From: Exiguobacterium sp. s122
GTDB lineage: Bacteria > Bacillota > Bacilli > Exiguobacteriales > Exiguobacteriaceae
Direction: 5' to 3'
NCBI RefSeq assembly: GCF_018618475.1
Contig: NZ_JACSMD010000001.1
Location: 372,001-436,000 of the forward strand
DNA: 64,000 bases
The position numbers were made by a program, and so were the translations under genes. Shown here piece by piece: positions 30,057 through 52,396 of the stretch (the first letter of the stretch is position 1; each line of letters starts with the position of its first letter). The notes under the pieces were generated by a model. That model made no database searches. It was not told the origin of the DNA and was given only the letters and a program-made list of their open reading frames with translations.

Positions 30057-30704
30057 TTACAAAAATTTTTCGTTCGTCTCGCGCGTTCGAATCGGTTTAG
30101 CAGGCGATCCGATTGCGATGACGTTATTTGGAATGTCATGGACGACAGTCGCACCGGCACCGATGACGCTCTCTGATCCGATGGTGACTTGATGAATGAC
30201 GGTCGCACCGATACCGACAAACGAGTGGCCCATGACGTGTACGTTACCCCCGAGATGGGTTCCGGGTCCGACGGATGCGAAAGCGTCGACTCGACAATCG
30301 TGATCAACGGACGCCATCGTATTGATGATACAGTGCGGACCGATGGTTGTACTCGGGTTGATGACCGCACCTGCCATCACCACAGCCCCCGCTCCGATTG
30401 TGACGTCTCGCCCGATGCATGCGCTTGGGTGAATAGCATGCACGAACTCGAACTCAGGTGCTTGTTCAAGAATGATCCGAGACACGAGGGCCCGGCTATC
30501 GTTATTTCCGATGCCAATAATGCCACGGTTAACGGCGTAGTCTGAGCGAATCGGTCCGAGGACAGGATAACCAAAATAGGTTGTTCCCATCAATTCGGGC
30601 CGGTCGTCGTAAATGCCGATGATGTGATGACGCTCCATTTGTTCGACGATGTCGATGACTACTTTCGTATGACCACCTGCTCCAAATAATACGATGTCTT
30701 CCAT
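30057..30704 (-). CDS. NeuD/PglD-like sugar O- or N-acyltransferase
   Basis: A 215-residue acyltransferase. An N-terminal Rossmann-like sugar-nucleotide-binding part (DIVLFGAGGHTKVVIDI) is followed by a left-handed beta-helix of hexapeptide repeats (about 85-205; IGRDVTIGAGAVVMAGAVI, IGPHCIINTMASVDHDC). The conserved His in NTMASVDHDCRV is the likely catalytic base. PglD and NeuD use acetyl-CoA to modify UDP-sugars or sialic acid. ATG 30704 is better spaced from GAGGG than the ATG at 30710. It is divergent from the polysaccharide genes that follow and probably modifies one of their sugars. Confidence 0.85.
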   Translation of the reverse strand: MEDIVLFGAGGHTKVVIDIVEQMERHHIIGIYDDRPELMGTTYFGYPVLGPIRSDYAVNRGIIGIGNNDSRALVSRIILEQAPEFEFVHAIHPSACIGRDVTIGAGAVVMAGAVINPSTTIGPHCIINTMASVDHDCRVDAFASVGPGTHLGGNVHVMGHSFVGIGATVIHQVTIGSESVIGAGATVVHDIPNNVIAIGSPAKPIRTRETNEKFL

Positions 30705-30918
30705 TTCCATCCCTCATTCCTATGACGGCCTCTCTTTTCATGTCTGTCTATTACCGCTATTCGAGATTTTAAACAGAATTCCTGTTACTGAATACGTATG
30801 GATGAGCTTTTGAAAAGACACCGGAACGTTGCAAAAAGATTCTTAATTCGGCTGTTTGATTGTCGTTTGATCTGGCTATTTTTTCATCGTAGTTATCGAA
30901 AGAGGGGAGTGGGCATGC

Positions 30919-31764
30919 ATGCCGCTGAAGCTCATGTATATTACCAATCAACCAAAAATTGCCGTCCTCGCCGAACAACAAGGAGTCGACTGGATCTTTG
31001 TCGACTTAGAGCTCCTCGGAAAAGTCGAGCGACAAGGTCACCTCGATACAGTCATCTCGCGTCATGCACGGGAAGACGTCAGCCTCGTCCGCGCAGCACT
31101 CCAATCCGCGTCACTCCTCGTACGGGTTAACCCGATTCATGAAATGTCCCGCGAAGAGATTGACGATGTCATTCAACGTGGCGCGGACATCATCATGCTC
31201 CCTTATTATAAGACCGTGAAAGAAGTCGAAACGTTCCTCCAAATCGTCGCGGGTCGCGTCAAAGTGTGCCTATTGTGTGAGACGAAAGAAGCGGTAGCCT
31301 GCATGCCAGACGTACTCGGTCTATCTGAAATTCATTACATTCATATCGGTTTGAACGACCTTCATCTAAGTTACGGACAGACATTCCTCTTTGAGCCGCT
31401 CGCAGACGGCTTGATTGAACAAATCACCTCGATGATTGCACGAACGCCAATCGAATTCGGTTTTGGTGGGATTGGTCGAATCGGGGAAGGGAACGTTCCG
31501 GCTGAGCGTATTTTGGGAGAGCACGTTCGGCTCGGATCGACGCTTGCCATCTTGTCCCGAAGCTTTTGCCATATTGGTGCGCATCGGACGGTCAGTGAAA
31601 CCGAGGCTCAATTGTTTCAAGAAGGGGTATGGAGAATTAGGGCGTATGAACAACAGCTCGCCGTCGCGACGGCCGATTGGCTCGAACAAAATCGGCTCCA
31701 ATTGGTGGCCGATGTCCAAACCGTCGTCACGAATCTCCAGGCAGGGAAAGGAATGTTGTCATGA
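30919..31764 (+). CDS. HpcH/HpaI aldolase/citrate lyase-family protein
   Basis: A 281-residue TIM-barrel protein. Family marks: DWIFVDLELLGK near the start, the metal-binding Glu in CLLCETKEAV and IHIGLNDLHLSYG (the usual GPNDLS loop with changes). Members reversibly condense pyruvate-type enolates with aldehydes. A C-terminal extension of about 40 residues is rich in Gln and Val. Its stop overlaps the start of a 2-hydroxyacid dehydrogenase gene (ATGA), so the two probably act in one pathway. It lies just ahead of the glycosyltransferases; a role in making an acidic or acyl decoration is an inference. No clear promoter was found in the 215 bases upstream. Confidence 0.8.
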   Translation: MPLKLMYITNQPKIAVLAEQQGVDWIFVDLELLGKVERQGHLDTVISRHAREDVSLVRAALQSASLLVRVNPIHEMSREEIDDVIQRGADIIMLPYYKTVKEVETFLQIVAGRVKVCLLCETKEAVACMPDVLGLSEIHYIHIGLNDLHLSYGQTFLFEPLADGLIEQITSMIARTPIEFGFGGIGRIGEGNVPAERILGEHVRLGSTLAILSRSFCHIGAHRTVSETEAQLFQEGVWRIRAYEQQLAVATADWLEQNRLQLVADVQTVVTNLQAGKGMLS

Positions 31765-32666
31765 ACGTATTGTGTACTGCGTTTCGTTTTAGTGAGGAAG
31801 AACGTCAACAGATTGAACGAACCGGCGTGACGCTTCATCTGTTAGAGCGTGAGGAAGACGTCGCCACGTATGATGTCTCGGAGATAGAGGGCATCATCTG
31901 CAACAATCTGTTTCTTTATCGAGACGTGGACGATTTTCCTCATCTTCGGTTCGTTCAAGTCGTGAGTGCGGGACTGGATCGTGTCCCGGTCGAACGATTA
32001 AAAGCGAGGCAAATCGAGCTCCATAACGCCGGTGACGCGTATGCGGTCCCGATGGCGGAATGGGTCGTCTGGCAGTTGCTCGACTTTTACAAGCGTGGCC
32101 CCGTCTTCCGCGCGCAACAGCAGGAAAAACGGTGGGAAAAACAACGTCGTTTGATTGAATTGACGGACCGGACCGTCACCGTTCTCGGTGTCGGCCATGT
32201 CGGTGAGGCGGTCGCAACTCGACTCCGCGCGTTCGGCATGTATGTAATTGGTGTCGGCCGAAGAGCGCGCGATGTGCCGTTCGTTGACGAGTACGTCCAG
32301 TTTGATCGACTTGACGACGTGCTCGAGCGAAGTGATGTTATTGTAATCGCCTTACCATTGACGGAACAGACCCATTACTTATTCGATAAGACCCGGTTCG
32401 AACGAGTAAAAGAAGGCGCAATTTTGTTGAACGTAGCGCGTGGTGCCATAGTCGATGAAACCGCCCTCCTATATGCACTTGAGACGAAAAAAGTGGCGGG
32501 TGCGGCGCTAGACGTCTTTGAGACAGAACCGTTACCCCGCAATCATCCGTTTTGGACCCATCCCGCCGTTCAACTCACCCCACATAATTCGTATGTATCC
32601 GATCGCGTAAACAGACGGCTCTTTCGGACCATTTTACGTAATCTAACACGGCAAACGACAAGTTGA
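31761..32666 (+). CDS. D-isomer-specific 2-hydroxyacid dehydrogenase
   Basis: An NAD(P)-dependent dehydrogenase of 301 residues. The nucleotide loop is VLGVGHVGEAV (about 140-150), the substrate Arg is in NVARGAIVDE, a Glu lies in DVFETEPLP and the catalytic His in LTPHNS. It would reduce a 2-keto acid to a D-2-hydroxyacid, or the reverse. The frame is open 28 codons upstream, but the ATG at 31761 overlaps the aldolase stop and follows AAAGGAA. It could act on the product of the aldolase; the substrate is unknown. A terminator whose stem includes the stop codon follows. Confidence 0.87.
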   Translation: MNVLCTAFRFSEEERQQIERTGVTLHLLEREEDVATYDVSEIEGIICNNLFLYRDVDDFPHLRFVQVVSAGLDRVPVERLKARQIELHNAGDAYAVPMAEWVVWQLLDFYKRGPVFRAQQQEKRWEKQRRLIELTDRTVTVLGVGHVGEAVATRLRAFGMYVIGVGRRARDVPFVDEYVQFDRLDDVLERSDVIVIALPLTEQTHYLFDKTRFERVKEGAILLNVARGAIVDETALLYALETKKVAGAALDVFETEPLPRNHPFWTHPAVQLTPHNSYVSDRVNRRLFRTILRNLTRQTTS

Positions 32667-32688: not shown

Positions 32689-32818
32689 ATATTTCACGAA
32701 AAAAATATCTATGACTCATTCGAATTGGGAGTTACGACGAAATCGTTCCGGGAAGAACGAGGATAGAATTAACGGATTTCCTACATCATGACGCGACATC
32801 CAAGAAGGAGTGAACCCG

Positions 32819-33871
32819 ATGGCCAACTTAACGACGCTCGTTAGCTTAATCGTTCCGATTTACAACACGAGCACGTACTTGCATCAATGCCTCGATAGCC
32901 TCGTTCATCAGACATACCCACACCTTGAGATTATCTGTATCAATGACGGAAGCACAGACAATAGCCTAGATATTGCGATGACGTACGTTAACGACCCGCG
33001 TGTTCAAGTCGTCGATCAACTCAATCGCGGTTGTACAGCGTGTCGGGCGCGTGGGCTCGATATGGCCAACGGAAAATATGTCATGTTCATCGACAGTGAC
33101 GATTGGCTCGACCTCGAAGCGATTCGAGTGCTCGTCGAGCATGCGGACCGAGAAGAAGCCGACGCGGTCATGGGCACATATGTCCGAGAGTACGGGAATC
33201 GGGCATTACCGAAACAAATCTTTCCGACGAACTATTTGTCATTCGATGAGGTGGAGACAAGACGTTACGTGCATCGTCGCCTATTTGGACTCATCGGCGA
33301 GGAGCTGGCGCATCCGGAAACGATTGATGCCCTTAATTCAAACTGTATCACGCTCTATCGCCGGTCACTACTTGAAGGGGTACCGATAGGGGGACCGCAC
33401 GGGACGTTCGTCGACTTATATTTTCAAATCCATGTCCTCGAGAAATGTAAACGGTTCGTCTATGTCGATTATCCTGTCTATCACTATCGGAAGACGAACA
33501 TGAACTCGGAATCGACCGTGTACAAACAAGACCTCGTCGCGTCGCGCCTCAACTTCTTCCATTTCATGATGGACTATATCGAACGACACGAGTTGGATGA
33601 GGAATATCGCCAGGCGTTATCGAATCGAATCGCGCTCAGCATGATTGGAATCGGATTGAACGAGTTGGCATCTTCTAAATCCGTGTGGGCTCAGGCGAAA
33701 GCGCTCCGTGATGTGCTACAGCAAGACGACTATCGACGTGCCTATGCCCAGTTCGATTTGTCCCATCTCGATTTGAAATGGAAGACGTTTTTTGCGCTCT
33801 GTAAACATGAACAGACGTTACCCCTCATCTTCTTATTGCGTGGCGTCGATTTCATGCGCCGTCGCGTGTAA
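32819..33871 (+). CDS. Family 2 glycosyltransferase
   Basis: A 350-residue GT2 enzyme of the GT-A fold, cytoplasmic face. Signature: VSLIVPIYNTSTYLHQCLDSL, the nucleotide-binding INDGSTDNS, and the DxD-type FIDSDDW at about 92-98. It starts the main run of polysaccharide genes. AAGAAGGAG lies eight bases before ATG 32819. The sugar donor and acceptor are unknown. Confidence 0.9.
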   Translation: MANLTTLVSLIVPIYNTSTYLHQCLDSLVHQTYPHLEIICINDGSTDNSLDIAMTYVNDPRVQVVDQLNRGCTACRARGLDMANGKYVMFIDSDDWLDLEAIRVLVEHADREEADAVMGTYVREYGNRALPKQIFPTNYLSFDEVETRRYVHRRLFGLIGEELAHPETIDALNSNCITLYRRSLLEGVPIGGPHGTFVDLYFQIHVLEKCKRFVYVDYPVYHYRKTNMNSESTVYKQDLVASRLNFFHFMMDYIERHELDEEYRQALSNRIALSMIGIGLNELASSKSVWAQAKALRDVLQQDDYRRAYAQFDLSHLDLKWKTFFALCKHEQTLPLIFLLRGVDFMRRRV

Positions 33872-33885
33872 GGGAGGGATGGATG

Positions 33886-35043
33886 ATGAAACGGATGCTG
33901 ATGGTGGCTTCGGTCGTGTCGATGATTGAAAGCTTCAATCGTGACAACATTCGCTTACTCCAAGAGATGGGCTATGACGTCCACGTTGCGACGAATTTTG
34001 AATGGGGCAGCATGTATTCAAACGAAAAAATTGAAAACATTCGACGCGATTTAACTCGACAAGGCGTGACGCTCTTTCAAATCGATTTTGAACGTGACAT
34101 TAAGAAGATGAACGGACATGTTCGTGCCTACCAACAGTTGAAAACGATCATGACGAAACAACGCTACGACTTTATTCACTGCCATTCCCCGATTGGCGGT
34201 GTGATCGGCCGCCTCGTTTCAAGACAGACCCATACGCCCTGCATGTATACAGCACACGGGTTCCACTTCTTTAAAGGCAGCCCCTCACTCAATTGGATGC
34301 TGTATTACCCGATTGAACGGACACTCGCCCGCTTCACAGACACAATCATTACAATCAATGAAGAAGATTATGAACGGGCCCAGTCGTTCAAGACGTCCCA
34401 CACATATCGCATCCCAGGTATCGGGGTCGATACGAAACGAATCGAGGCGGTGACGATTGACCGTCAAGCGAAACGTCGAGCACTTGGGGTCGATACGGAT
34501 ACCGACTTTGTCTTATTGTCTGTCGGCGAGCTGAATGAGAATAAAAACCATGAAACCATCATTCGGGCGATTGCCGCCTTACAGGAACCGACGCTTCGGT
34601 ATTGGATTGCCGGTACGGGGAACTATCGAGCGCAGCTCGAGCACTTGATTCGTGAGCTCGGTCTGAGTGGCCAAGTTCAATTACTCGGTTATCGGGATGA
34701 TGTCATTGAAGTGATGAAAGCGGCGGATTGCTTTGTTTTTCCGTCAAAACGTGAGGGATTAGGGATGGCCGCGCTTGAAGCGATGGCAGCCGGGCTGCCT
34801 TTGATCACATCAAACGTCCACGGCATCAACGATTATTCGATTGAAGGGGTCACCGGCTACAAACGGGCGCCGATTGACATCTTAGGCTTCGCTAAGGCAA
34901 TCCGAACGATGCAACGGGATTTCGACTTGTCTCATCAAATGGGTCTTCACAATAGTGAGGTAGTTAAAGCGTTTGATGTCAATCGTTCGAAAGAAGAGAT
35001 GCGACGTATCTACTCAGAGTTCGGTCAATTCAAGGCGACATGA
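33886..35043 (+). CDS. Family 4 glycosyltransferase
   Basis: A 385-residue GT4 enzyme (GT-B fold), similar to EpsD/CapM types. The N-terminal acceptor domain includes HCHSPIGGVIGRL and TAHGFHFFKG. The C-terminal donor domain has the E-x7-E signature FPSKREGLGMAALEAMAAGLPLI (split here for length: FPSKREGLGMAALEA, then MAAGLPLI). Two adjacent ATGs exist (33883, 33886); the second is seven bases from GGAGG. It lies 14 bases after the GT2 gene. Confidence 0.9.
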   Translation: MKRMLMVASVVSMIESFNRDNIRLLQEMGYDVHVATNFEWGSMYSNEKIENIRRDLTRQGVTLFQIDFERDIKKMNGHVRAYQQLKTIMTKQRYDFIHCHSPIGGVIGRLVSRQTHTPCMYTAHGFHFFKGSPSLNWMLYYPIERTLARFTDTIITINEEDYERAQSFKTSHTYRIPGIGVDTKRIEAVTIDRQAKRRALGVDTDTDFVLLSVGELNENKNHETIIRAIAALQEPTLRYWIAGTGNYRAQLEHLIRELGLSGQVQLLGYRDDVIEVMKAADCFVFPSKREGLGMAALEAMAAGLPLITSNVHGINDYSIEGVTGYKRAPIDILGFAKAIRTMQRDFDLSHQMGLHNSEVVKAFDVNRSKEEMRRIYSEFGQFKAT

Positions 35044-35171: not shown

Positions 35172-35948
35172 GTGAAAAGTCAAACGATGTTATTGACGGA
35201 GATTTTCGACATTTTCAAAAAAAGCAAATGGCTGATTGCATTAACCGTTTTAATAGGTGGTGGCGCCGCCTATTATGTGAGCCAATCGATTGTAGAACCA
35301 ACGTACGAGGCATCAACACAAATTCTCATCGTTCCGAAACAGGAAGCCGGTACAAATGTGGTCGACAGTGCTCAAATTTCATCTTCTTTATCTTTAATTA
35401 ACACCTATCGTGTCATCATGCGCAGTCCGGCCATTTTAAACGAAGTGCAAGAACGGGTGCCGGAAGCCCCAGCTGACATCAGTGAAATCTTACTCGTCGA
35501 GAGCGAAGAGGACTCCCAAGTCATCAATATCGTCGTCGAGTACTCAGATGCAGCGGTAGCCGCCGAAATCGCTAACGTCATCACAAACGTGTTCGCCACC
35601 GAAATTCCCGAGTTGATGAATATCGATAACGTTCGGATTTTGTCAGAGGCACAAGTGCCGGAAGGTCCGGTCTCACCGAACGTCGTCATCAATACGGCAC
35701 TCGGAATCATCGCCGGATTTGTCATCGGGGGCGCACTCGCACTTGTCCGATTCACGTTCGATAAACGGATTCATAACGAGACAGAGGCGATGCAATTGTT
35801 ATCGCTCCCGGTCATCGGATCGGTCCCGGTCATTGAGAAACGGGATATGAAACCGAAAGTGGTAAAGCCAAAAAAAGATTCAACCATCCCACCGGAAGGA
35901 GATGAGCCGCATGTTCCACCTACCAAAGAAACCCGACAGTCTTCGTGA
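35172..35948 (+). CDS. Polysaccharide co-polymerase, Wzz/CapA type BY-kinase modulator
   Basis: A 258-residue membrane protein that sets chain length and activates the BY-kinase. Membrane segment 1 is at about 20-38 (LIALTVLIGGGAAYYV), an extracellular Wzz domain follows, and membrane segment 2 is at about 175-197. The segment just before it has the Pro-containing AQVPEGPVSPNVV typical of the family. A cytoplasmic tail rich in Lys and Pro follows. A GTG start is used, with AGGAGGG before it. The end overlaps the kinase gene by 38 bases. In Firmicutes the modulator and kinase are separate proteins, as here. Confidence 0.9.
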   Translation: MKSQTMLLTEIFDIFKKSKWLIALTVLIGGGAAYYVSQSIVEPTYEASTQILIVPKQEAGTNVVDSAQISSSLSLINTYRVIMRSPAILNEVQERVPEAPADISEILLVESEEDSQVINIVVEYSDAAVAAEIANVITNVFATEIPELMNIDNVRILSEAQVPEGPVSPNVVINTALGIIAGFVIGGALALVRFTFDKRIHNETEAMQLLSLPVIGSVPVIEKRDMKPKVVKPKKDSTIPPEGDEPHVPPTKETRQSS

Positions 35949-36615
35949 CACCGAACGCCATTTGATTACGCTGACGAATCCGAAGTCACCAATCGCCGAA
36001 CAGTATCGGACCATTCGGACAAATCTGCAATTTACGGCGCTTGGAGCGGAATTAAAGACGATTGTTGTGACGTCCGCTTCTCCTGGAGAAGGTAAATCGA
36101 CGACGGCATCGAACCTCGCCATTGTCTACGCCCAACTCGGTAAGCGTGTTTTATTAATGGATTGCGATATGCGTAAACCGACGATTCATCAAACGTTTCA
36201 ACTGATGGGCACGCAAGGGTTATCGACGGTGCTGGCCAAACGCTCCTCCGTGGAACGGGCGATTCAGACGAGTCAAGTGCCGAAGCTTCATGTTTTGTCA
36301 GCCGGACCGATTCCACCGAATCCGTCCGAACTATTGGCTTCACCGATGATGCGACAACTGTTAAATGATGTGAAAGACTTGTATGACCTCGTCATCTTAG
36401 ATGCGCCACCGCTCATGCAAGTAGCTGACAGTCGGCTCCTTGCGAGCGAGGCGGACGGCACGATTCTCGTCGTCAGCTGTGACAACTCAAACCGTGATCT
36501 CGTGTTACAGGCGAAAGAACAGCTTGTTTTGTCTGGTGCGAACGTTCTCGGCCTCGTCATGAACCGACGTGAGCGGACAAGTACCGATTCTTATTATAGT
36601 TACACCCATGGGTGA
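35911..36615 (+). CDS. Tyrosine-protein kinase (BY-kinase), CpsD/CapB/YwqD type
   Basis: A 234-residue cytoplasmic autokinase controlling polysaccharide synthesis and export. Walker A is SPGEGKST (57-64), Walker A' is LLMDCDMRKP and Walker B is LVILDAPP. The C-terminal tail STDSYYSYTHG carries the tyrosine cluster that is autophosphorylated. ATG 35911 (nine bases after GGAAGGAG) is preferred to the ATG at 35902. The matching PHP-type phosphatase (CapC/YwqE) is not in the window, although it usually follows the kinase gene. Confidence 0.93.
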   Translation: MFHLPKKPDSLRDTERHLITLTNPKSPIAEQYRTIRTNLQFTALGAELKTIVVTSASPGEGKSTTASNLAIVYAQLGKRVLLMDCDMRKPTIHQTFQLMGTQGLSTVLAKRSSVERAIQTSQVPKLHVLSAGPIPPNPSELLASPMMRQLLNDVKDLYDLVILDAPPLMQVADSRLLASEADGTILVVSCDNSNRDLVLQAKEQLVLSGANVLGLVMNRRERTSTDSYYSYTHG

Positions 36616-36637: not shown

Positions 36638-37909
36638 ATGCGAATCTTGCACATTAATGCGATTCATGAACAGAAGAGTACTGGCCGAATCTGTAAAGAG
36701 ATGTCCGAGGTAGCACGGAGCCAAGGACATGAGAGTCTCGTCGCCTATGCGACAGGACCGGACACTGTATTGGGATATCGGATTGGTTCACACGCCGATC
36801 AAAAACGGCACGCCCTCCTTTCTCGGTTGAGCGGAAAACAAGGATATTTCTCTAAAACAGCAACGGAGGACCTCATCCGGTTTATGGAAAGTTATGAGCC
36901 AGACGTCGTGCATTTACACAATCTACATTCAAACTACCTTCACCTAGAAACGTTGCTTACGTGGTTAGCGGTCCACGATATACCGACTGTGTTGACGCTC
37001 CACGACTGTTGGTTTTATACCGGGAAATGCATGCACTACACACAGGCAGGTTGCGATCGCTGGCTCGAGGGATGCGGTTCATGCCCGCAACTGAAGGAAG
37101 ACAACCCGAGTTGGTTTTTTGACCGAACGGCCGAAATGTGGCGAGACAAAAAACGTTGGTTCGAGGCGATCCCCCGTCTTGCCGTCATCGGAGTTTCAGA
37201 TTGGATCACCATCGAGGCGAGATTCTCCTTCTTACAGCGCGCCATGATTTTACGTCGTATTTATAATTGGGTCGACCCGGACGTGTTCCATCCTCGCGAC
37301 ACACGGCCGACACGTAAAGAGATAGGGATAGAGAATACGTTCGTCCTATTAGGTGTCGCAAGTTCGTGGGATGATTCGAAAGGGTTAGCGGACTGGATTG
37401 ACCTCGCGAGACGCTTGCCAGATGATCGCGTTCTCCTCGTCGGGGCGATGCCGAACCGATCCTTGCCTAGTAATGTACACGTCATTCCTGCGACTTCAGA
37501 CGTCGAGGAACTCGCCACCTACTACGCACTCGCCGACGTCTTCTTGAACTTATCCGAAGAAGAGTCGTTTGGAAAAGTGACCGTAGAAGCACTCGCCTCT
37601 GGGACACCTGCCATCGTCTATGACGCAACTGCCAACCCAGAGCTCGTCCCGGACCGCTGTGGTCGTGTCGTCACCCCACACGATCTCGATGCTTTAGTCC
37701 AGGCGGTGACATCGATTCGTCAAGCCGGCGGTGAGGCGTTTCGTGAGGCATGTGTCGCCCATGCGCACGGAACGTTTTCCATGCTGGATCGGGTGAGCGA
37801 TTATTTGAACGTCTATACGCAACTTCAGGAAATGAAAGGAAGGGATTCACAATGGCGCGTCCACTCGTCTCCATCATCATTCCCGTCTATAACGGATCAG
37901 ACTATTTAG
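36638..37909 (+). CDS. Family 4 glycosyltransferase with Cys-rich acceptor loop
   Basis: A 423-residue GT4 enzyme. HLHNLHSNYLHLE and LTLHDCWFYTGKCMHY are typical of WcaC-like colanic acid and O-antigen transferases. A Cys-rich stretch (CMHYTQAGCDRWLEGCGSC) follows. The donor-site signature is SEEESFGKVTVEALASGTP. The last 19 residues are encoded inside the next gene, an overlap of 58 bases, and look like a read-on tail rather than a fold element. AAGGAGGGGG precedes the ATG. The sugar specificity is unknown. Confidence 0.88.
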   Translation: MRILHINAIHEQKSTGRICKEMSEVARSQGHESLVAYATGPDTVLGYRIGSHADQKRHALLSRLSGKQGYFSKTATEDLIRFMESYEPDVVHLHNLHSNYLHLETLLTWLAVHDIPTVLTLHDCWFYTGKCMHYTQAGCDRWLEGCGSCPQLKEDNPSWFFDRTAEMWRDKKRWFEAIPRLAVIGVSDWITIEARFSFLQRAMILRRIYNWVDPDVFHPRDTRPTRKEIGIENTFVLLGVASSWDDSKGLADWIDLARRLPDDRVLLVGAMPNRSLPSNVHVIPATSDVEELATYYALADVFLNLSEEESFGKVTVEALASGTPAIVYDATANPELVPDRCGRVVTPHDLDALVQAVTSIRQAGGEAFREACVAHAHGTFSMLDRVSDYLNVYTQLQEMKGRDSQWRVHSSPSSFPSITDQTI

Positions 37910-38787
37910 AAGAAACGATTCATAGCGCGCTCGCCCAAACGTATGACCGCGTGGAAGTGCTCGTCATCAACGATGGATCGACCGATGGTGGGGTGACGGC
38001 AGCGATTGCAAAACGATTTGGAGACCGAATCCGCTACTTCGAGAAACCGAACGGCGGGGTGTCGACCGCCCTCAACCTGGGGATTCGTGAAATGAACGGA
38101 GACTGGTTCTCGTGGCTCAGCCATGATGATCTCTATTTACCGGAGAAGATTGCGACTCAAGTCGGTCATATCGAACGACTCGGGGATTGTGCTTCTACGA
38201 CCATCTTATCGTGTGGGACCGGATTGATTGATGGAGAAGGACGTCCGATTCATCGGCCAAGGAAACGCGTGAAAGGAGCTTTCACAAGTGTGGAGATGTT
38301 TGATCATCTTTTGCTTGAGTCGTGTCTAAGTGGGTGCGCGCTCCTCATTCCCCGTCAAGCACTCGAAAACGTCGGTGGGTTCCCGACGACGTATCGCTAC
38401 ATCCAAGATTGGATGTGCTGGGTAGATATGACGCTCGCCGGCTATATGTTCTTTGTCACGACCGAGCAGCACGTCTTATCTCGCGTCCATGCCAAACAGC
38501 AAACGAAACGGATTGCCGAACTAGCACCGGTTGAAACAGCACGCTTCTTTGAACGATTGCTGACCCGATTGACTAGTGAGGAAAATCCGTCCCGTCATCA
38601 CCTTCGGACCACGTTCCGAGCCCTTTATCGCTCGACAGACCGTTCGGCACAAGAAGAGTTGTTCGTTCGTTTTCACGGAACGCGCTACGTGTCGAAAATG
38701 GAACAGTCCCGTTGGCGTGTCTCATCAGATATCTATCATCGACTCATTACCGCTTACCGGGGGGTTATGAATCTTCGGTATCGTTAA
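37852..38787 (+). CDS. Family 2 glycosyltransferase
   Basis: A 311-residue GT2 enzyme starting MARPLVSIIIPVYNGSDYLEE... with INDGSTDGG (nucleotide site) and SHDDLYLPEK in place of the usual DxD (SxDD form). The frame is open 34 codons upstream inside the previous gene, but ATG 37852 follows AAAGGAAGGGA and begins the domain. It overlaps the preceding glycosyltransferase gene by 58 bases. Confidence 0.88.
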   Translation: MARPLVSIIIPVYNGSDYLEETIHSALAQTYDRVEVLVINDGSTDGGVTAAIAKRFGDRIRYFEKPNGGVSTALNLGIREMNGDWFSWLSHDDLYLPEKIATQVGHIERLGDCASTTILSCGTGLIDGEGRPIHRPRKRVKGAFTSVEMFDHLLLESCLSGCALLIPRQALENVGGFPTTYRYIQDWMCWVDMTLAGYMFFVTTEQHVLSRVHAKQQTKRIAELAPVETARFFERLLTRLTSEENPSRHHLRTTFRALYRSTDRSAQEELFVRFHGTRYVSKMEQSRWRVSSDIYHRLITAYRGVMNLRYR

Positions 38788-38808
38788 ACGTAGAGAGGAG
38801 GAGATCGT

Positions 38809-39867
38809 ATGGTGATTTACTTAATCAATATGATGCTACTCATCGCCTGGGCGTTTCTCCTATTACGCGATGATGGGATTCGCCATGGCAAAGCGTTATT
38901 CGTCAGCATCGCCACGCTACAATGGATTGTCCTATCGGGTTTTCGCCACGTCAGTGTTGGGGCGGACACGTTGCAATACAAATGGATGTTTGACGAGACG
39001 AAAGCCATCTCGTGGAATCGTCTGGGCGATCATTTCATGGCAATTTTATTCGGGGAGGCGGAAGGTCGCGATCCTGGTTACTACATCTTGCAAAAAACGA
39101 CCCAAATCGTGACAGATAACTACCAATGGTATCTCCTCATTGTCGCCGTCTTATTCCTCGTCCCGTTTGGCATTTGGATTTATCGAAACTCGACTGAGCC
39201 ATTACTTAGCTTCATCATCTTCTCGACCTTGTTCTATGCGTTCTTCGCGATTACCGGCATCCGACAAACGTTAGCGACGGCCATCGCCGTCTTGATTGGC
39301 TATTACTTCATTCAACAGCGCCGCTTTTGGCCATTCCTTGCGATTGTACTCCTTGCTGCGACAATCCATAAATCGGCACTCGTGTTCATTCCGTTTTACT
39401 TCTTGGCGACCAAAACAATTACGACGCGTTATCTCCTGTTTATGGGTGCTCTCATCCCTTTCTTGTTCGTGTTCCGGATTCAACTGTTCGAATTGTTTCG
39501 GACGATTAGCGGGTATGAGGAGTATGAATATTACGCTGGAGCGGGCACACTTAACTTCTCGCTCATGCTACTCGTTATTACAGGTGTCGCGATTTGGCGA
39601 CGTGAACAAATGATTGCCGCCAACCCGAACGTGACACATTATTTGAACGCGTTGCTCTTAGCCCTCTGTTTCTTGCCTCTCACGTTCATTAATCCATCGA
39701 TGATGCGAATCGTCCAATACTTCTCGATTTTCATCATGCTCCTCATCCCTGAACTGATTCGTTCCTTTGATCAGCGCGAACGACTGCTCGTCTATTACAC
39801 GGCTATCACGATGCTCATGCTGTTGTTCGCACGTTATCAGCCGGTATATCAATTCTTTTGGCAATAA
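38809..39867 (+). CDS. EpsG-family polysaccharide polymerase (Wzy-like)
   Basis: An integral membrane protein of 352 residues with about ten membrane segments. GFRHVSVGADTLQYKWMF in the first extracytoplasmic loop is the EpsG family mark, and FAITGIRQTLATAIAVLIGYYF is another. It probably joins repeat units outside the membrane. It is placed directly before the flippase gene, as expected for Wzx/Wzy systems. GAGGAGGAG precedes the ATG. Confidence 0.85.
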   Translation: MVIYLINMMLLIAWAFLLLRDDGIRHGKALFVSIATLQWIVLSGFRHVSVGADTLQYKWMFDETKAISWNRLGDHFMAILFGEAEGRDPGYYILQKTTQIVTDNYQWYLLIVAVLFLVPFGIWIYRNSTEPLLSFIIFSTLFYAFFAITGIRQTLATAIAVLIGYYFIQQRRFWPFLAIVLLAATIHKSALVFIPFYFLATKTITTRYLLFMGALIPFLFVFRIQLFELFRTISGYEEYEYYAGAGTLNFSLMLLVITGVAIWRREQMIAANPNVTHYLNALLLALCFLPLTFINPSMMRIVQYFSIFIMLLIPELIRSFDQRERLLVYYTAITMLMLLFARYQPVYQFFWQ

Positions 39868-39887
39868 AAAAGAGGGAGGGGAGTCAC

Positions 39888-41435
39888 GTGGCGACCAAAG
39901 TTCAAATCGAGGTCGATGAGGCAAAGAGTTCTCGTCAAATCAAAATTGGTGCGTTGATGTCCTATGTCGCCATCGGATTTAACGTCTTAGCTGGACTTCT
40001 TTACACCCCATGGATGATTGCTGAGATTGGTCAGGCAAGCTATGGCTTATACATGCTCTCCATTTCGCTCGTCAGTATGTTCGCACTCGATTTCGGGCTC
40101 GAGGCGGCCGTGTCTCGCTTCTTATCGAAGTATTATGCTCTCGGTGATCGAGACGGGGCGGCCAAATTTCTCGGTGTCGCGTTCAAGTTGTTCCTAGGTA
40201 TCGCCGGATTGATTGCGTGCGTCTTGATTGGCGTCTACGTCATGATTGAGAGCATTTATGCGAGCCTGTCACCAGCGGAAATCGACACCCTGAAAGTCCT
40301 TTACATCATGGTCGGATTTTATATCGTCGTCTTGTTCCCGACGAAACCGTTCAACGGGATTTTTGTCGCCAATGAACGCTTCGTCATCTTGAACTGGTTT
40401 AACTTGTCGGAGAAGGTATTGACCGTGCTGTTAATGGTTGGGGCCCTCTTACTTGGGTTTGGGCTTTATGCACTTGTCTTCGTGAATGCGATTGTTGGTC
40501 TTGCCATCATCGTCGGAAAGGGGCTCTACTTGTTCCGGAAGACGGACACCGTCGTCGAATGGCTCTATCAAAGTCGTGCCATGTATCGAGATATCTTCTC
40601 CTTCTCATCCTGGACGACGATTATCGCCTTGGCTCAACGATTCATCTTAAACATCACACCGACGATTCTCGGGGCGGTCGCCGGGAGCGCTTCGATTGCT
40701 TTATTCTCGATTGGGATGGTGATCGAAGGATACGTCTGGACAATTGCGTCGGCCATCGGATCGCTTTTCCTTCCGAAAGTGACGCGTATGACGACGAACA
40801 ACCGACATGATGCGCTTGAGGATTTGCTCATACGGGTCGGTCGGATTCAACTCTTTATCGTTGGATTGATTATCGTCGGGTTCATGACGATGGGGCAAGA
40901 GTTTATTCGGCTTTGGGTCGGCGAGTCGTTTAAAACGTCTTATCTCATCGCCCTTCTATTGATTGCACCCGGTTTGATTACGTTGACGCAAGAGATTGCG
41001 TATACGACGCTCATCGCCGTCAATCAAATCAAATTTCGGGCGTTCGCCTCTCTCCTCGTCGCAACGGTGAGTGTCATCTTATCCCTCATCTTATCGCCCC
41101 AATATGGAGCGGTTGGCGCAGCCGTTGCCATCTTGGTCGGAAACGTGGTGGGGACGGTCGTCTTTATGAATGTCGTGTACATGAAAGTATTGAACTTAAA
41201 CATGTGGCGCTTCTTCTTTGCCTGTCATTTGAAAATTGCACCAGCCTTGCTCTTCTTGGCGATTGTCGGCACCTTGATGCAGACGTACTTTCCCGTCGAC
41301 TCACTCGTCGCGTTTTTAGTAAAAGCGCTCATCATCGGTATCATGTATGGGACGTTCTTATGGCTCTTCACGTTCCGGGAGAGCGAGAAGCAGTTAGTCC
41401 TCGGTGTTATACGGCGCGTTTCAAAGACATCCTAA
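39888..41435 (+). CDS. Polysaccharide flippase (Wzx-like, MATE/MOP superfamily)
   Basis: A membrane protein of 515 residues with about 12-14 membrane segments. It would flip lipid-linked repeat units across the membrane. The start region KIGALMSYVAIGFNVLAGLLYTP and the FGLEAAVSRFLSKYYA segment fit Wzx-like transporters. A GTG start at 39888 with GGGAGGGGAG is chosen over ATG 39858, which lies inside the polymerase gene. A terminator overlaps its stop, so the first half of the cluster ends here. Confidence 0.88.
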   Translation: MATKVQIEVDEAKSSRQIKIGALMSYVAIGFNVLAGLLYTPWMIAEIGQASYGLYMLSISLVSMFALDFGLEAAVSRFLSKYYALGDRDGAAKFLGVAFKLFLGIAGLIACVLIGVYVMIESIYASLSPAEIDTLKVLYIMVGFYIVVLFPTKPFNGIFVANERFVILNWFNLSEKVLTVLLMVGALLLGFGLYALVFVNAIVGLAIIVGKGLYLFRKTDTVVEWLYQSRAMYRDIFSFSSWTTIIALAQRFILNITPTILGAVAGSASIALFSIGMVIEGYVWTIASAIGSLFLPKVTRMTTNNRHDALEDLLIRVGRIQLFIVGLIIVGFMTMGQEFIRLWVGESFKTSYLIALLLIAPGLITLTQEIAYTTLIAVNQIKFRAFASLLVATVSVILSLILSPQYGAVGAAVAILVGNVVGTVVFMNVVYMKVLNLNMWRFFFACHLKIAPALLFLAIVGTLMQTYFPVDSLVAFLVKALIIGIMYGTFLWLFTFRESEKQLVLGVIRRVSKTS

Positions 41436-41543: not shown

Positions 41544-41623
41544 CATTTGTCTTTTAGAATTCCAATTCGTTCATCCATCACCTTACGTAACTTGAAGACA
41601 TCATGAAAAGGAGAGAATTGGCC

Positions 41624-42649
41624 ATGTTCAAAGATAAAACGTTACTCATCACAGGGGGAACGGGATCCTTCGGCAACGCCGTGATGCAACGCTTCCTCAA
41701 AACGGACATTAAAGAAATTCGCATCTTCTCCCGAGATGAAAAAAAGCAAGATGATATGCGCAAACTGTATCACGATGACAAGCTCAAGTTTTATATCGGG
41801 GACGTCCGTGATATCAATAGCGTACGAAACGCCATGTATGGCGTCGACTACGTCTTCCACGCTGCGGCGCTGAAGCAAGTCCCGTCTTGTGAGTTCTTCC
41901 CGCTCGAAGCGGTCAAGACGAACGTGCTCGGCACAGACAACGTGCTCAATGCGGCAATCGAACAACATGTGAATAAAGTGATTTGCCTCTCCACCGATAA
42001 AGCGGCATATCCAATCAATGCGATGGGCATCTCGAAAGCGATGATGGAGAAAGTGTTCGTCGCGAAGGCGAAAGCAGTCGCACCGAATCAGACACTCATT
42101 TGCGGCACGCGTTATGGGAACGTGATGGCCTCACGCGGCTCGGTCATCCCGCTCTTTGTCGAACAAATCAAACGAGGGGAACCCCTCACCGTCACGGATC
42201 CATTCATGACCCGCTTCTTGATGAGCTTAGAAGACGCGGTCGAGCTTGTCGTCTTCGCCTTTAACCATGCGCATGCTGGTGACATCATGGTCCAAAAATC
42301 ACCCGCTTCAACGATTGGGGTCCTCGCTCAAGCGCTCCTCGAGCTCTTCCATGCCTCTAACCCGATTAAAGTCATCGGTACACGGCATGGTGAGAAAGCG
42401 TATGAGACGTTATTAACACGAGAAGAGAACGTCGTCGCCGAAGACATGGGCGGATTTTATCGGGTCCCGGCCGACACGCGTGACTTGAACTACGACAAAT
42501 ACTTTAACGAAGGAAGTAAACAATTGACGGTCGAGGGAGAGTACAACTCGGCCAACACCGAACAGTTAAACGTCGAGCAAGTGAAACAGTTGTTGTTGAC
42601 ACTACCGTACATCCGTGAAGAACTCGCGAGCTGGGTGAAGGTGTCATGA
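41624..42649 (+). CDS. capE: UDP-N-acetylglucosamine 4,6-dehydratase/5-epimerase
   Basis: First enzyme of UDP-N-acetyl-L-fucosamine synthesis: removes water from UDP-GlcNAc and inverts C5. It has 341 residues, an SDR of the CapE/FnlA group: LLITGGTGSFGNAV (Rossmann), FSRDEKKQDDMRK, FHAAALKQVPSCE and LSTDKAAYPINAMGISK. The last replaces the usual YxxxK with MxxxK, as in CapE. Resemblance to staphylococcal CapE is strong along the whole length. The frame starts at 41603, but the ribosome site AAAAGGAG lies inside that, so ATG 41624 is used. capF and capG follow with overlaps. Confidence 0.93.
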   Translation: MFKDKTLLITGGTGSFGNAVMQRFLKTDIKEIRIFSRDEKKQDDMRKLYHDDKLKFYIGDVRDINSVRNAMYGVDYVFHAAALKQVPSCEFFPLEAVKTNVLGTDNVLNAAIEQHVNKVICLSTDKAAYPINAMGISKAMMEKVFVAKAKAVAPNQTLICGTRYGNVMASRGSVIPLFVEQIKRGEPLTVTDPFMTRFLMSLEDAVELVVFAFNHAHAGDIMVQKSPASTIGVLAQALLELFHASNPIKVIGTRHGEKAYETLLTREENVVAEDMGGFYRVPADTRDLNYDKYFNEGSKQLTVEGEYNSANTEQLNVEQVKQLLLTLPYIREELASWVKVS

Positions 42650-43797
42650 ACATTCTGATTACTGGAGCGAACGGCTTCGTCGGGAAGAATTTAGTGGCGA
42701 CACTAGAAGGTACCGGACATACGTTGCTGTGTTGCACAAGAGACACGCCACCGGACGTACTTGCGGCATATTGTGAAGAGGCAAATTTCGTCTATCATCT
42801 AGCCGGTGTCAATCGAACGGAACGAGAAGCGGAGTTCATCGAAGGGAACGTCACGTTCACGAAACGACTTGTTGCTATGTTGACGAAGGCAGAGAACTTA
42901 GCCCCGATCATGTTCGCATCTTCAATTCAAGCGACACGGGACAACCCATACGGGAACAGCAAACGAATGGCGGAAGAGCTATTGATGCGTGAGCAGTTGA
43001 CGACGGGTCGTCGGATTCATTTGTATCGTTTCCCGAACTTGTTCGGCAAGTGGGGGCGGCCCGGCTATAACAGTGTCGTCGCAACCTTTTGTGATCGTGT
43101 GGCACGCCATCTACCGCTCGACATTCATGAACCGGAGCGTTTGATGGAACTTGCCTACATCGATGACGTTATCGCTTCGCTCGTATCGCTACTTGACACG
43201 TTCGTCGAGCAAGAGGCACCGTTTCGGGAAGTTCCGACGCATTCACCAGTCTCTCTCGGCCACATTGCCGAGTTGCTCGTCTCGTTTCGAGAAAGCCGGA
43301 AGACGTTAGCCGTACCTCAGCTCGAGGACACGTTCACAAAACGGTTGTACAGCACGTATCTCAGTTATTTACCGGTCGATGATTTCGCTTATGACTTGAC
43401 GATGCACGAGGATAAGCGGGGCTCCTTCACCGAGTTTCTTCGCACACCTGATCGAGGTCAAGTTTCGATTAACGTCGCCAAGCCGGGCATCACGAAAGGG
43501 AATCACTGGCACCATACGAAAAACGAGAAATTTTTGGTCGTCAGTGGGGATGCCGTCATTCGATTCCGAAAAATCGGGACAGATGAAGTAATTAGTTATC
43601 ATGTCAGCGGAGATATGATGCGCGTCGTCGACATTCCGGTCGGCTATACGCACCACATTGAGAATGTCGGCACAACGGACCTTGTGACGGTCATGTGGGT
43701 GAATGAAGCGTTCGATGCAGCCAGCCCGGATACAACTTTCATGGAGGTGCAAAATGAAACGTCTGAAAGTGATGACCATCGTCGGAACGCGTCCTGA
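42646..43797 (+). CDS. capF: UDP-2-acetamido-2,6-dideoxyhexulose reductase/epimerase
   Basis: Second enzyme of the UDP-L-FucNAc pathway, 383 residues. The N-terminal SDR (about 1-245; ITGANGFVGKN, NPYGNSKRMAEEL with YxxxK) reduces C4. The C-terminal cupin (about 265-375; ITKGNHWHHTKNEKFLVVSG, with metal-binding His) epimerises C3. The product is UDP-6-deoxy-L-TalNAc. It overlaps capE by four bases (ATGA), and its 3' end overlaps capG by 44 bases. Confidence 0.93.
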   Translation: MNILITGANGFVGKNLVATLEGTGHTLLCCTRDTPPDVLAAYCEEANFVYHLAGVNRTEREAEFIEGNVTFTKRLVAMLTKAENLAPIMFASSIQATRDNPYGNSKRMAEELLMREQLTTGRRIHLYRFPNLFGKWGRPGYNSVVATFCDRVARHLPLDIHEPERLMELAYIDDVIASLVSLLDTFVEQEAPFREVPTHSPVSLGHIAELLVSFRESRKTLAVPQLEDTFTKRLYSTYLSYLPVDDFAYDLTMHEDKRGSFTEFLRTPDRGQVSINVAKPGITKGNHWHHTKNEKFLVVSGDAVIRFRKIGTDEVISYHVSGDMMRVVDIPVGYTHHIENVGTTDLVTVMWVNEAFDAASPDTTFMEVQNETSESDDHRRNAS

Positions 43798-44905
43798 AAT
43801 CATCAGATTGTCGGCCGTCATCCACAAACTTGAACAGTCCGAAGCGATTGATCATGTTCTCGTTCACACCGGTCAAAATTATGATTACGAGTTGAATGAG
43901 GTGTTCTTCAACGACTTTTGCTTACGTAAACCAGACCACTTCTTAAACGCCGCCACAGGGACCCCGGTCGAGACGATTGGTAACATCTTAATTCAAGTCG
44001 ACCCAGTGCTCGAAATGGAGCGTCCGGACGCCGTCTTGATTCTCGGTGATACGAATTCGTGTCTTTGTGCGATTGCGGCCAAACGCCGGAAGATTCCAAT
44101 TTTTCATATGGAGGCAGGTAACCGTTGTTTCGACCAACGCGTTCCCGAAGAGATAAATCGTAAAATCGTCGACCATACTGCTGATGTGAATTTGACGTAT
44201 AGCGATATCGCCCGAGAATATTTGCTTCGTGAGGGATTACCGGCGGAACGAATCATTAAGACGGGAAGTCCGATGTACGAAGTGCTCGCTTCAAAACGAG
44301 AAGCGATTGAACAGTCTGATGTGTTAGAACGTCTCGAATTGACATCTGAGCACTATTTCCTCGTCTCGGCCCATCGTGAAGAAAACGTCAATTCTGATAA
44401 GCAGTTCCTAGCACTCGTCGATAGCTTAAACGCGATCGCGGCCCAGTACGAGTTACCGGTCATCGTCAGCACTCATCCTCGAACGATGAAACGCATCAAC
44501 GAGTTGAACGTTACGTTCCATCCGCTTGTCCGCCTGTTAAAACCGCTTGGATTCATCGACTACAATCATCTGCAACTTCACGCAAGAGCAGTATTAAGCG
44601 ACAGTGGCACAATCAGTGAAGAATCGTCGATTCTCGGTTTACGAGGTCTGAACATCCGCGAGGCACATGAACGTCCCGAAGCGATGGAAGAAGGAGCGGT
44701 GCTCATGGTTGGGCTACAGAAAGAGCGGATTTTGCAAGGTCTCTCCATCTTGATGGAACAACCACAGCCTCGACTCGTCAATGACTACAGCATGCCAAAC
44801 GTTTCCGACAAAGTTGTCCGCATCCTCATTTCCTACACCGACTACATTCGGCGCGAAGTATGGAAAGGGACGACTGACCCACGTCAGACTGTAAAGGAGA
44901 GCTGA
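43754..44905 (+). CDS. capG: UDP-N-acetyl-L-talosamine 2-epimerase (UDP-L-FucNAc synthase)
   Basis: Third enzyme of the pathway, related to WecB/MnaA UDP-GlcNAc 2-epimerase, 383 residues. It starts MKRLKVMTIVGTRPEIIRLS and has HTGQNYDYELNEVFF, HMEAGNRCFDQRVPEEINR, and LLVSAHREENVNS-like FLVSAHREENVNS, with SDSGTISEESSILG in the UDP site. The frame is open upstream inside capF; ATG 43754 follows GGAGG by six bases. With capE and capF it should complete UDP-L-FucNAc. Confidence 0.92.
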   Translation: MKRLKVMTIVGTRPEIIRLSAVIHKLEQSEAIDHVLVHTGQNYDYELNEVFFNDFCLRKPDHFLNAATGTPVETIGNILIQVDPVLEMERPDAVLILGDTNSCLCAIAAKRRKIPIFHMEAGNRCFDQRVPEEINRKIVDHTADVNLTYSDIAREYLLREGLPAERIIKTGSPMYEVLASKREAIEQSDVLERLELTSEHYFLVSAHREENVNSDKQFLALVDSLNAIAAQYELPVIVSTHPRTMKRINELNVTFHPLVRLLKPLGFIDYNHLQLHARAVLSDSGTISEESSILGLRGLNIREAHERPEAMEEGAVLMVGLQKERILQGLSILMEQPQPRLVNDYSMPNVSDKVVRILISYTDYIRREVWKGTTDPRQTVKES

Positions 44906-44908
44906 GTG

Positions 44909-46039
44909 ATGAAACAAAAACTGGTCTTCATTAGTAATATTGCCTCCCCCTATCAAGTAAAGCTATGCTACGCGCTAGAAGAGTATTTTGAGGCAGAGTT
45001 TTGGTTTTACGAGCACCTCGACAGCAATCGACCTCACTGGTGGAAAATCCCGCTTGGCGATCGCTGCAAAGTATTGCCGTACTCAAAACGATTCCCGAAA
45101 TTGAGTTATTTCTCGCTCGGTCTGATTCCGGAACTCATTCGGTTTAAACCAGATATTTTACTCCTAGGCGGCTTCATGCCTGGCCATGCGGTCTTGACGA
45201 AGCTTGCGAAGCGACTGGGAATGAAAGTGGTTGTCATGAGCGAACCGCTACGGCCGCTTCAAAATGATGACGATCCCTCGACGTTGCTCATGAACCGACA
45301 AGACAATCCGACGAAGACGAAGTTACTCCATTGGATGTTCAAGGACGCTGACCTCTACTTCGGGATGGGGACGGTCGCTGTCGAACAGTTCAAGTCCGAG
45401 TTACGATTTGATCCTGAGAAAGTCGTGCACGCGACCTATGCGCAAGACATCGACGCCTATTTCGAGCATCCTTTGCGTCATAAGGAGCCAGGCGACACGT
45501 TCAAGTTGTTATTCGCCAATCGTCTCGTTGAACGTTATCAACCACTCCTTGTTTTAGAGGCGTATCGCAACTTATCAAAACGCTATTCACTCGAACTGTA
45601 TTTAAATCATTCCGGCCAACTGTTAGAAGCATGTAAAGCCTATATCAAGACGCATCAACTCGAACACGTTCACTTCTTAGACGAAATCAAGGCATGGGAT
45701 GAGATGCCTCGCGTTTACGAACAAGCAGATATTTTGATTCTTCCGGCGACGTATTCAAATGGGAATGGAACGATTATTGAAGCGCGCGCGTCAGGGATGG
45801 GCATCGTGATCAGCAATCAAATCAATAATGTTGCTCATCACTCGGTCAGTGAAGAAAACTGTTACTTCTGCGACGTGACGGTCGAATCGATTGAAGCGAG
45901 TATCGAGCAATATTTAAAGCATCCAGAACGACTCATCAAACACGGTCAATTGTCACGCGAACTTGTAAAGTTTCACCGAAACGACGTGACAGCAAAAGGG
46001 TATTACGACACGTTGCGGGAGAAAAAGCTCATCTTATAA
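44909..46039 (+). CDS. Family 4-like glycosyltransferase
   Basis: A 376-residue probable glycosyltransferase of the GT-B fold. The N-terminus FISNIASPYQVKLCYALEEYF and the donor-site pattern ILILPATYSNGNGTIIEA (E-x7-E-like) support this. It directly follows capG, so it may transfer FucNAc, though nothing in the sequence shows this. AAAGGAGA lies eight bases before ATG 44909; an in-frame GTG lies just upstream. Confidence 0.8.
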   Translation: MKQKLVFISNIASPYQVKLCYALEEYFEAEFWFYEHLDSNRPHWWKIPLGDRCKVLPYSKRFPKLSYFSLGLIPELIRFKPDILLLGGFMPGHAVLTKLAKRLGMKVVVMSEPLRPLQNDDDPSTLLMNRQDNPTKTKLLHWMFKDADLYFGMGTVAVEQFKSELRFDPEKVVHATYAQDIDAYFEHPLRHKEPGDTFKLLFANRLVERYQPLLVLEAYRNLSKRYSLELYLNHSGQLLEACKAYIKTHQLEHVHFLDEIKAWDEMPRVYEQADILILPATYSNGNGTIIEARASGMGIVISNQINNVAHHSVSEENCYFCDVTVESIEASIEQYLKHPERLIKHGQLSRELVKFHRNDVTAKGYYDTLREKKLIL

Positions 46040-46051
46040 AGGAGGTTGGTC

Positions 46052-46768: not shown

Positions 46769-46778
46769 GAGGTATCCC

Positions 46779-52268: not shown

Positions 52269-52396
52269 CACAAACCTCCCTGATTTTCTAAAAAATGAAA
52301 TGTTGATAGTGTAATACCACTTATTCTTTTTTGTTTCCCTTTTTATTGAAAATTTAAATCTGGAAAAAAAGCTGATTCGCATAAATCACGAAATTA

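Follow-up and report, generated by a model that had tools for sequence, protein, structure and literature searches.

Characterized aldolases of the HpcH/HpaI family, such as HpaI and YfaU, have catabolic roles. In the 64,000-nucleotide stretch of Exiguobacterium sp. s122 analyzed here (NZ_JACSMD010000001.1, positions 372,001 to 436,000; the window), a divergent aldolase-like relative of these enzymes (ALD) and a D-2-hydroxyacid dehydrogenase (DH) are encoded as a pair at the head of an exopolysaccharide locus, beside the gene of a NeuD-type acyltransferase (Table 1). We propose, at a probability of about 0.55, that ALD and DH constitute a dedicated two-enzyme exopolysaccharide module yielding a hydroxy-acid residue. 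Such a residue had been suggested in an original prediction made from the DNA alone, and the sequence comparisons described below lend it support.

The tetronate genes of Vibrio cholerae O1 presumably encode a carrier protein, a ligase, reductases and an acyltransferase and, unlike the ALD-DH pair, include no aldolase. Their product, 3-deoxy-L-glycero-tetronic acid on perosamine (PMC3441752, in part), consists of a 4-amino sugar bearing a 2,4-dihydroxy acid, which a pyruvate aldolase acting with a hydroxyacid dehydrogenase could conceivably make. Shewanellose, i.e., 2-acetamido-2,6-dideoxy-4-C-(3'-carboxamide-2',2'-dihydroxypropyl)-D-galactose, occurs in S. putrefaciens A6 together with a derivative of 8-epilegionaminic acid (PMC4052302, in part). 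Its pyruvamide-like C-4 branch could conceivably arise by aldol addition of pyruvate and amidation. C-4 branches proposed to derive from pyruvate are known in other systems, the yersiniose enzyme being among the works cited by title (PMC4753412, in part). In Bacillus subtilis, the eps route to N,N'-diacetylbacillosamine (diNAcBac) comprises EpsC, EpsN, EpsM, and EpsL (PMC10653937, in part). Neither a description of an ALD-DH-type pair in polysaccharide synthesis nor a polysaccharide structure from Exiguobacterium was found among the listed titles and abstract openings of open-licence papers, and we regard ALD-DH as an enzyme module without a description that we could find, in a known kind of locus.

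Conservation of the ALD-DH pair among glycan genes

The genus sample consisted of 19 Exiguobacterium genomes, 13 of which (the window genome included) have a close ALD homologue while six do not. Close homologues of DH (at least 375.8 bits; the remaining matches are paralogues of at most 111.7 bits) and of NeuD (at least 263.1 bits) occur in the same 13 genomes. In the ALD-less genomes a moderate NeuD match was detected in G005 only (113.3 bits, 35% identity), the others reaching at most 38.5 bits. Since the three genes are kept as a block in 13 of the 19 genomes, their grouping is not due to chance. The pair heads an exopolysaccharide locus in all 13, and thus the genomes searched did not place it mostly in catabolic loci. 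The original prediction proved sound, stronger than stated as to the link to polysaccharide synthesis and weaker as to NeuD. The three open reading frames are present where it had placed them, and they stay together with polysaccharide clusters in the 12 other ALD genomes as well. The translational coupling of aldolase and dehydrogenase was likewise borne out. The listed open reading frame of DH opens at its first start codon, TTG 31677. Genus-wide, however, the conserved start is ATG 31761, so that the two genes share four bases that include the stop codon of ALD (31762-31764); this overlap is retained in 13 of 13 ALD genomes, as ATGA in 12 and as TTGA in G014. NeuD is outside the ALD-DH operon because it is divergently transcribed across 208 base pairs (bp), presumed from the sequence to form the promoter region of both genes.

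For synteny, 21 genes of the locus were compared by tblastn with each of the 12 other ALD genomes. All 12 contained NeuD, ALD, DH, the glycosyltransferases GT2a and GT4a, Wzz, the tyrosine kinase, Wzx, and the phosphoglycosyltransferase, the latter with 64-87% identity to the window copy. GT2b, EpsG, FnlA-B-C, GT4c, WbqC, DegT, and RmlA-B were additionally present in nine genomes and missing from the three reduced loci of G017, G002, and G009, where GT2b had just a partial match of 30%, in G009, at the place of GT2a; GT4b is missing from the reduced loci and also from G011 and G014. The reduced loci encode NeuD, ALD, DH, two glycosyltransferases, a putative polymerase, Wzz, the tyrosine kinase, the flippase, and the phosphoglycosyltransferase, so that the sole recognized enzymes beyond glycosyl transfer, chain-length control, polymerization, and export are NeuD, ALD, and DH. 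The putative polymerase is a protein of 392-403 amino acids (aa) encoded between GT4a and Wzz, the G017 copy of which matched no Pfam or NCBIfam family. From ALD to the phosphoglycosyltransferase gene the gaps of the reduced loci measure at most 207 bp and there is no uncovered open reading frame of at least 60 aa, which leaves no room for a carrier protein, encoding elsewhere being possible.

The presence of ALD and DH was not tied to the WbqC-DegT-RmlAB module, a candidate association that was rejected given that WbqC, found in 16 of the 19 genomes, occurs in all six ALD-less genomes and is missing from three ALD genomes. The stretches around WbqC in the ALD-less genomes (L058-L063) contain homologues of FnlA, FnlB, GT4c, DegT, and RmlA-B. 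In G005 (L058) and G006 (L059), where the left locus end lies inside the stretch, the locus opens with a 153-aa-type gene and Wzz and is devoid of NeuD, ALD, DH, GT2a, and GT4a. The phosphoglycosyltransferase showed 40-43% identity to the window copy in five of the six stretches and was not listed in L062. Because these loci lack the five genes and carry a distant phosphoglycosyltransferase, NeuD, ALD, DH, GT2a, and GT4a together with one type of phosphoglycosyltransferase behave, judged from sequence, as a separable module. Its presence or absence need not follow kinship: ALD-less G004 shares 94% identity with the window in the flanking gene w53624, for which the 12 ALD genomes show 71-85%, and 92% in the PgaC-like gene.

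Beyond the genus, distant relatives of ALD (41-47% identity) are likewise located among glycan genes. A class-level sample of 398 genomes yielded strong matches in the same 13 genomes only, and a phylum sample of 398 genomes yielded four, namely the window genome, G460, G467, and G409 (in two contig pieces). Not counted as true relatives were the weak matches, which made up 12 of the 25 matching genomes of the class sample (none above 27.7 bits) and 33 of the 37 of the phylum sample (none above 32.7 bits). A DH gene accompanies ALD in L052 (MT835705.1, the one record obtained from a phage collection; ALD identity 44.6%), where the record ends in the order phosphoglycosyltransferase-ALD-DH with DH running off the end, and in G409, where ALD is split, phosphoglycosyltransferase-ALD standing at one contig end and ALD-DH at another. 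Thus, both distant pairs (one Firmicute genome, one faecal contig) follow a phosphoglycosyltransferase gene, which adds to the polysaccharide link seen in the genus. MT835705.1 is labelled Bacteriophage sp., unverified, and judged by eye contains bacterial chromosomal genes (RecA, MurA, CysS).

Other partners were found elsewhere. In G460 and G467, a class IV aminotransferase resembling IlvE and a decarboxylase resembling LysA are encoded within a few genes of ALD; the G460 locus includes PglF (42% identity over 621 aa) and the G467 locus FnlA (68%). Phosphonate genes, i.e., a cytidylyltransferase-PEP (phosphoenolpyruvate) mutase fusion, phosphonopyruvate decarboxylase, and a class V aminotransferase, are also present in the ALD-bearing glycan locus of G460 (L094, 5668-9237). 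A plasmid search revealed ALD with 43.7% identity, over 96% of ALD, in two roseobacter plasmid records, counted as one case because most of their genes share accessions. Their gene order is DegT-AsnB-ALD-NeuB with NeuA, NeuC, and NeuD nearby, the DegT being 49% identical to LegC of the window genome. Independent contexts therefore number three for DH (the genus, L052, G409), two for aminotransferase plus decarboxylase, and one for AsnB. As these partners act on a 2-oxo acid, on the amino acid derived from one, or on a carboxylate, the few loci available suggest that a 2-oxo-acid group is made by ALD and then modified by the respective partner. No further ALD was found in other genomes of the order (0/16, E 1e-20) and class (0/28, E 1e-15) of G460, the class of G409 consisted of that genome alone, no relative was confirmed when viral contigs were scanned with A2, A3, and the L052 protein, and a plasmid search with the roseobacter ALD added only a weak partial match in Cupriavidus. 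On these comparisons, ALD is a discrete, sparse, and divergent family of the HpcH/HpaI-pyruvate superfamily in the samples used.

Family, fold and conserved residues of the enzymes

ALD scored 37.9 bits (E 1.6e-9) with Pfam family PF03328 (HpcH_HpaI), the curated cut-off of which is 25, and matched no NCBIfam family at E 0.001, for which reason it is considered a true but remote member; identity to HpcH/HpaI aldolases in Foldseek alignments was about 13-16%. A first model (13 close rows) had a pLDDT of 80.4 and a second, AlphaFold2 model (12 rows including G460 and G467) one of 89.7, both showing a barrel of alternating strands and helices. Foldseek placed pyruvate kinase on top and HpcH second for the first model, while the top match of the second was HpaI (4b5w, E 2.1e-9, TMt 0.62), pyruvate kinases being matched as well. 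The safe statement based on the models is that ALD would belong to the PEP/pyruvate superfamily, with HpcH/HpaI as its Pfam assignment. R69, E121, and D147 are invariant across the family. E121 and D147, kept in all eight rows, align with a Glu and an Asp that we take to be metal ligands in HpaI and YfaU, and likewise with those of a third HpcH/HpaI aldolase; R69 was aligned by eye with R70 of HpaI. The likeness to the class II pyruvate aldolases (HpaI and YfaU of E. coli, SwHKA) and to the citrate synthase SbnG comprises the Pfam match, the TIM barrel of the superfamily, and the two acidic residues (Glu, Asp) of the metal site. Distinctive of ALD as compared to HpaI aldolases are the motifs DLE..(G/N)K.ERQ and EH.RLGS, besides the glycan-locus setting and the loss of His45; in eight diverse members D29-L30-E31, K35, E37-R38-Q39, E201-H202, and R204 to S207 are invariant.

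DH was recognized by its NAD-binding domain as PF02826 (2-Hacid_dh_C) with E 2.3e-56. The Arg (NVARG), Glu (ETEP), and His (TPHNS), presumably the catalytic residues of D-2-hydroxyacid dehydrogenases, are kept in the seven full-length rows of an eight-row alignment, and DH probably prefers NADPH since GRR or GHR follows strand 2. DH is 45% identical to the DH of G409, as compared to 32-33% for the two other DH matches of the window genome; 42 records of a phage collection (10 listed) resemble DH by general dehydrogenase similarity.

NeuD exceeded the cut-off of NCBIfam TIGR03570 (NeuD_NnaD; 208.4 versus 160.8 bits), matched Pfam PglD_N, and aligned through VDHDC with the perosamine N-acetyltransferase 4ea7 (E 2.8e-37). 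The His of this motif, which we take to be the catalytic residue of NeuD/PglD-type acyltransferases, matches 4ea7, the near-identical chains 4eaa and 4eab differing at that position. A remote PglF-SDR-LegC locus is present in all 13 ALD genomes (the LegC model TIGR04181 scoring 379.6 bits, under its cut-off of 420), and no NeuD homologue was found in the 20-kb stretches around it (E 0.001). Each of these genomes therefore combines a 4,6-dehydratase, an aminotransferase, NeuD, and a phosphoglycosyltransferase. Because the remote locus has no NeuD, an EpsM equivalent is the economical reading of the NeuD studied here, which probably is an EpsM/PglD-type acetyltransferase acting on UDP-4-amino-4,6-dideoxy-GlcNAc for UDP-diNAcBac. 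Together, PglF-LegC, NeuD, and the locus phosphoglycosyltransferase would provide a full route like that of EpsC-N-M-L; all four enzymes of the B. subtilis eps route and of Campylobacter PglF-E-D-C have counterparts in the ALD genomes, with the difference that in Exiguobacterium the genes are divided between two loci. In the ALD-less genome G005, a PglF-LegC pair (48-49% identity) lies within a different locus that also encodes a separate phosphoglycosyltransferase and NeuD. In the other five, strong DegT matches adjoin WbqC or are of another type (G012, G016) that the window genome also has. In the remote locus of L053, the SDR-family gene between PglF and LegC (7614-8456; G000:C1, about 191,600) is just 32-36% identical to its counterparts in the 12 other genomes, PglF and LegC showing 70-84%, and a homing-endonuclease-associated HNH repeat protein (PF18780; 9614-10198 of L053) is encoded beside PglF-LegC in 13 of 13 genomes. 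A further dehydratase-DegT pair of the window genome (L064, 10622-12800; G000:C1, about 627,000) perhaps serves a pseudaminic-type route.

Possible products of the pair

Whereas the genes present, their conservation and surroundings, the predicted fold, and the residues kept are described above, we infer the reaction, its direction, cofactor, and acceptor, and the attachment of its product. ALD would act as a metal-dependent pyruvate (or PEP) enolate enzyme that extends a carbonyl acceptor by a 2-oxo-acid unit of three carbons, and DH, probably with NADPH, would turn the 2-oxo group so introduced into a D-2-hydroxy acid by reduction. The residue would then enter the repeat unit built by the phosphoglycosyltransferase, GT2a, and GT4a, with further glycosyltransferases in the long locus version, while NeuD together with the remote PglF and LegC would complete UDP-N,N'-diacetylbacillosamine as the presumed first sugar. 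Several observations weigh against this proposal. His45, which we take to be a catalytic residue of HpaI, is not kept (aligned by eye, HpaI has DGEH where ALD has DLE and then L, I, Y, or T), and thus classical HpaI chemistry may not hold. The VIA-align list of the second ALD model is full of pyruvate kinases, with 7ueh on top (Z 21.4, root-mean-square deviation 3.0, 222 aligned). In the reduced loci, no ligase acting on a free hydroxy acid and no transferase dedicated to one could be recognized, and no DH homologue was found in the roseobacter stretches (E 0.001). Moreover, the 13 ALD genomes are not independent cases because all are from one genus, and the ALD-less genomes were searched for DegT only, not for PglF itself.

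Because no ligase was recognized, direct addition on a sugar nucleotide has to be taken seriously, although we consider it rather unlikely. In this reading, PglF or FnlA would supply a UDP-4-keto-6-deoxy-HexNAc, ALD would attach pyruvate at its C-4 ketone, and the branch would be tailored by the partner, DH acting by reduction, the aminotransferase and decarboxylase by amination, and AsnB by amidation; separate activation is not needed as the product already is a sugar nucleotide. This would be in line with PglF in 13 of 13 ALD genomes, with PglF and FnlA in the loci of G460 and G467, and with AsnB adjoining ALD in the NeuA/B/C locus. Shewanellose, too, occurs with a nonulosonic acid, the 8-epilegionaminic acid derivative (PMC4052302, in part), just as the roseobacter ALD-AsnB genes adjoin NeuB; unlike an AsnB-based shewanellose scheme, Exiguobacterium has DH beside ALD. 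Contrarily, no PglF, FnlA, or RmlB homologue was found in roseobacter L050, L051, and L099 (about 90 of 141 kb of one plasmid and 41 kb of the other), and C-4 branching from pyruvate has been described with other enzymes (PMC4753412, in part). Co-presence of ALD and a dehydratase is weak evidence since 4,6-dehydratases are common: PF02719, searched within the genus in G017, G002, and G009 only, matched in 14 of 14 control genomes. That ALD founds a family of pyruvate C-branching aldolases acting on nucleotide-linked 4-keto-6-deoxy sugars with a swappable partner (dehydrogenase, aminotransferase plus decarboxylase, or asparagine-synthase-like amidase) is a doubtful extension; if true, higher-carbon branched sugars of the shewanellose type would occur in surface polysaccharides of Firmicutes and marine alphaproteobacteria.

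The original prediction had NeuD transfer the free hydroxy acid made by ALD and DH as an N- or O-acyl group. NeuD-family enzymes are N-acyltransferases and NeuD stays with ALD and DH in all 13 genomes, but it is transcribed away from the pair, the PglF-LegC route in all 13 genomes already accounts for it, and the three reduced loci have neither a recognized acyl-CoA ligase nor room for a carrier protein, either of which might be encoded elsewhere. This transfer is thus weakened, no longer favoured, and in our view unlikely. Quite improbable is also that ALD is another enolate enzyme, e.g., an SbnG-like condensing enzyme or a PEP-using transferase. For the first model, SbnG 4tv5 headed the VIA-align rows (Z 18.6, root-mean-square deviation 2.5, 187 aligned) on a par with HpaI and pyruvate kinases; it was not among the 50 rows listed for the second. 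A search of open-licence papers gave none on an SbnG structure. The loss of His45 would fit such an enzyme, as would the LysA-like decarboxylases of G460 and G467, which match the FslC model below its cut-off and recall siderophore pathways, but no siderophore gene was recognized in the Exiguobacterium locus. A catabolic or salvage pair, in which DH would oxidize a hydroxy acid and ALD cleave the 2-oxo acid to pyruvate and an aldehyde at an incidental glycan position, would agree with the roles of HpaI and YfaU. It is already disfavoured and very improbable, given that all 13 genus loci and the distant loci found are in or beside glycan genes and that the left flank differs among genomes, phosphotransferase system and beta-glucosidase genes occurring in just 5 of 13, the window included.

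Further features of the locus and significance of the module

Table 1. Features of the exopolysaccharide locus in the window (plus and minus refer to the forward strand as given).
Feature	Position	Strand	Basis and distribution
NeuD/PglD/EpsM-type left-handed beta-helix acyltransferase, 217 aa	30057..30710	minus	TIGR03570, above cut-off
NeuD-ALD intergenic region, 208 bp	30711..30918	none	sequence
ALD, divergent HpcH/HpaI (PEP/pyruvate superfamily) aldolase-like enzyme, 281 aa	30919..31764	plus	PF03328
DH, D-2-hydroxyacid dehydrogenase, 301 aa from ATG 31761	31761..32666	plus	PF02826
GT2a, family 2 glycosyltransferase	32810..33871	plus	PF00535; 13/13 genomes
GT4a, group 1 glycosyltransferase	33883..35043	plus	PF00534; 13/13 genomes
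Wzz-like chain-length protein and tyrosine-kinase-type ATPase	35172..36615	plus	PF02706, PF13614; 13/13 genomes
GT4b, GT2b, EpsG-family protein (presumed polymerase)	36638..39867	plus	long locus version
Wzx-type flippase	39858..41435	plus	PF01943; 13/13 genomes
FnlA, FnlB, FnlC-type UDP-L-FucNAc route genes and GT4c	41603..46039	plus	10/13 genomes
WbqC-like protein, DegT aminotransferase, RmlA, RmlB	46046..49886	plus	separate 4-amino-sugar module
Bac_transf phosphoglycosyltransferase, presumed repeat-unit starter	49898..50551	plus	PF02397

GT2a directly follows DH in 11 of the 13 genomes; in G011 and G014 a 421-aa open reading frame, by eye a group 1 glycosyltransferase, lies in between. FnlA and FnlB-type models scored below their equivalog cut-offs. 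The WbqC-like gene (46046-46768), standing with DegT-RmlA-RmlB, possibly has a role in acyl or amino-acyl transfer. An APH-family kinase gene is located immediately left of NeuD (29070-30026), and tblastn detected no homologue in the locus stretches of the 12 other ALD genomes; on its right, the locus is bordered by PgaD-like and PgaC-like genes (50587-52382, minus strand).

It is chemical analysis that has revealed hydroxy-acid and C-branched residues in bacterial polysaccharides, and to our knowledge the enzymes behind many of them are unassigned. A family such as ALD, which stays with glycan genes and swaps partners, would be a genetic handle on these residues and would help to predict from sequence which polymers carry them. 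Moreover, it would add a glycan-building branch to a superfamily known mainly for catabolism.

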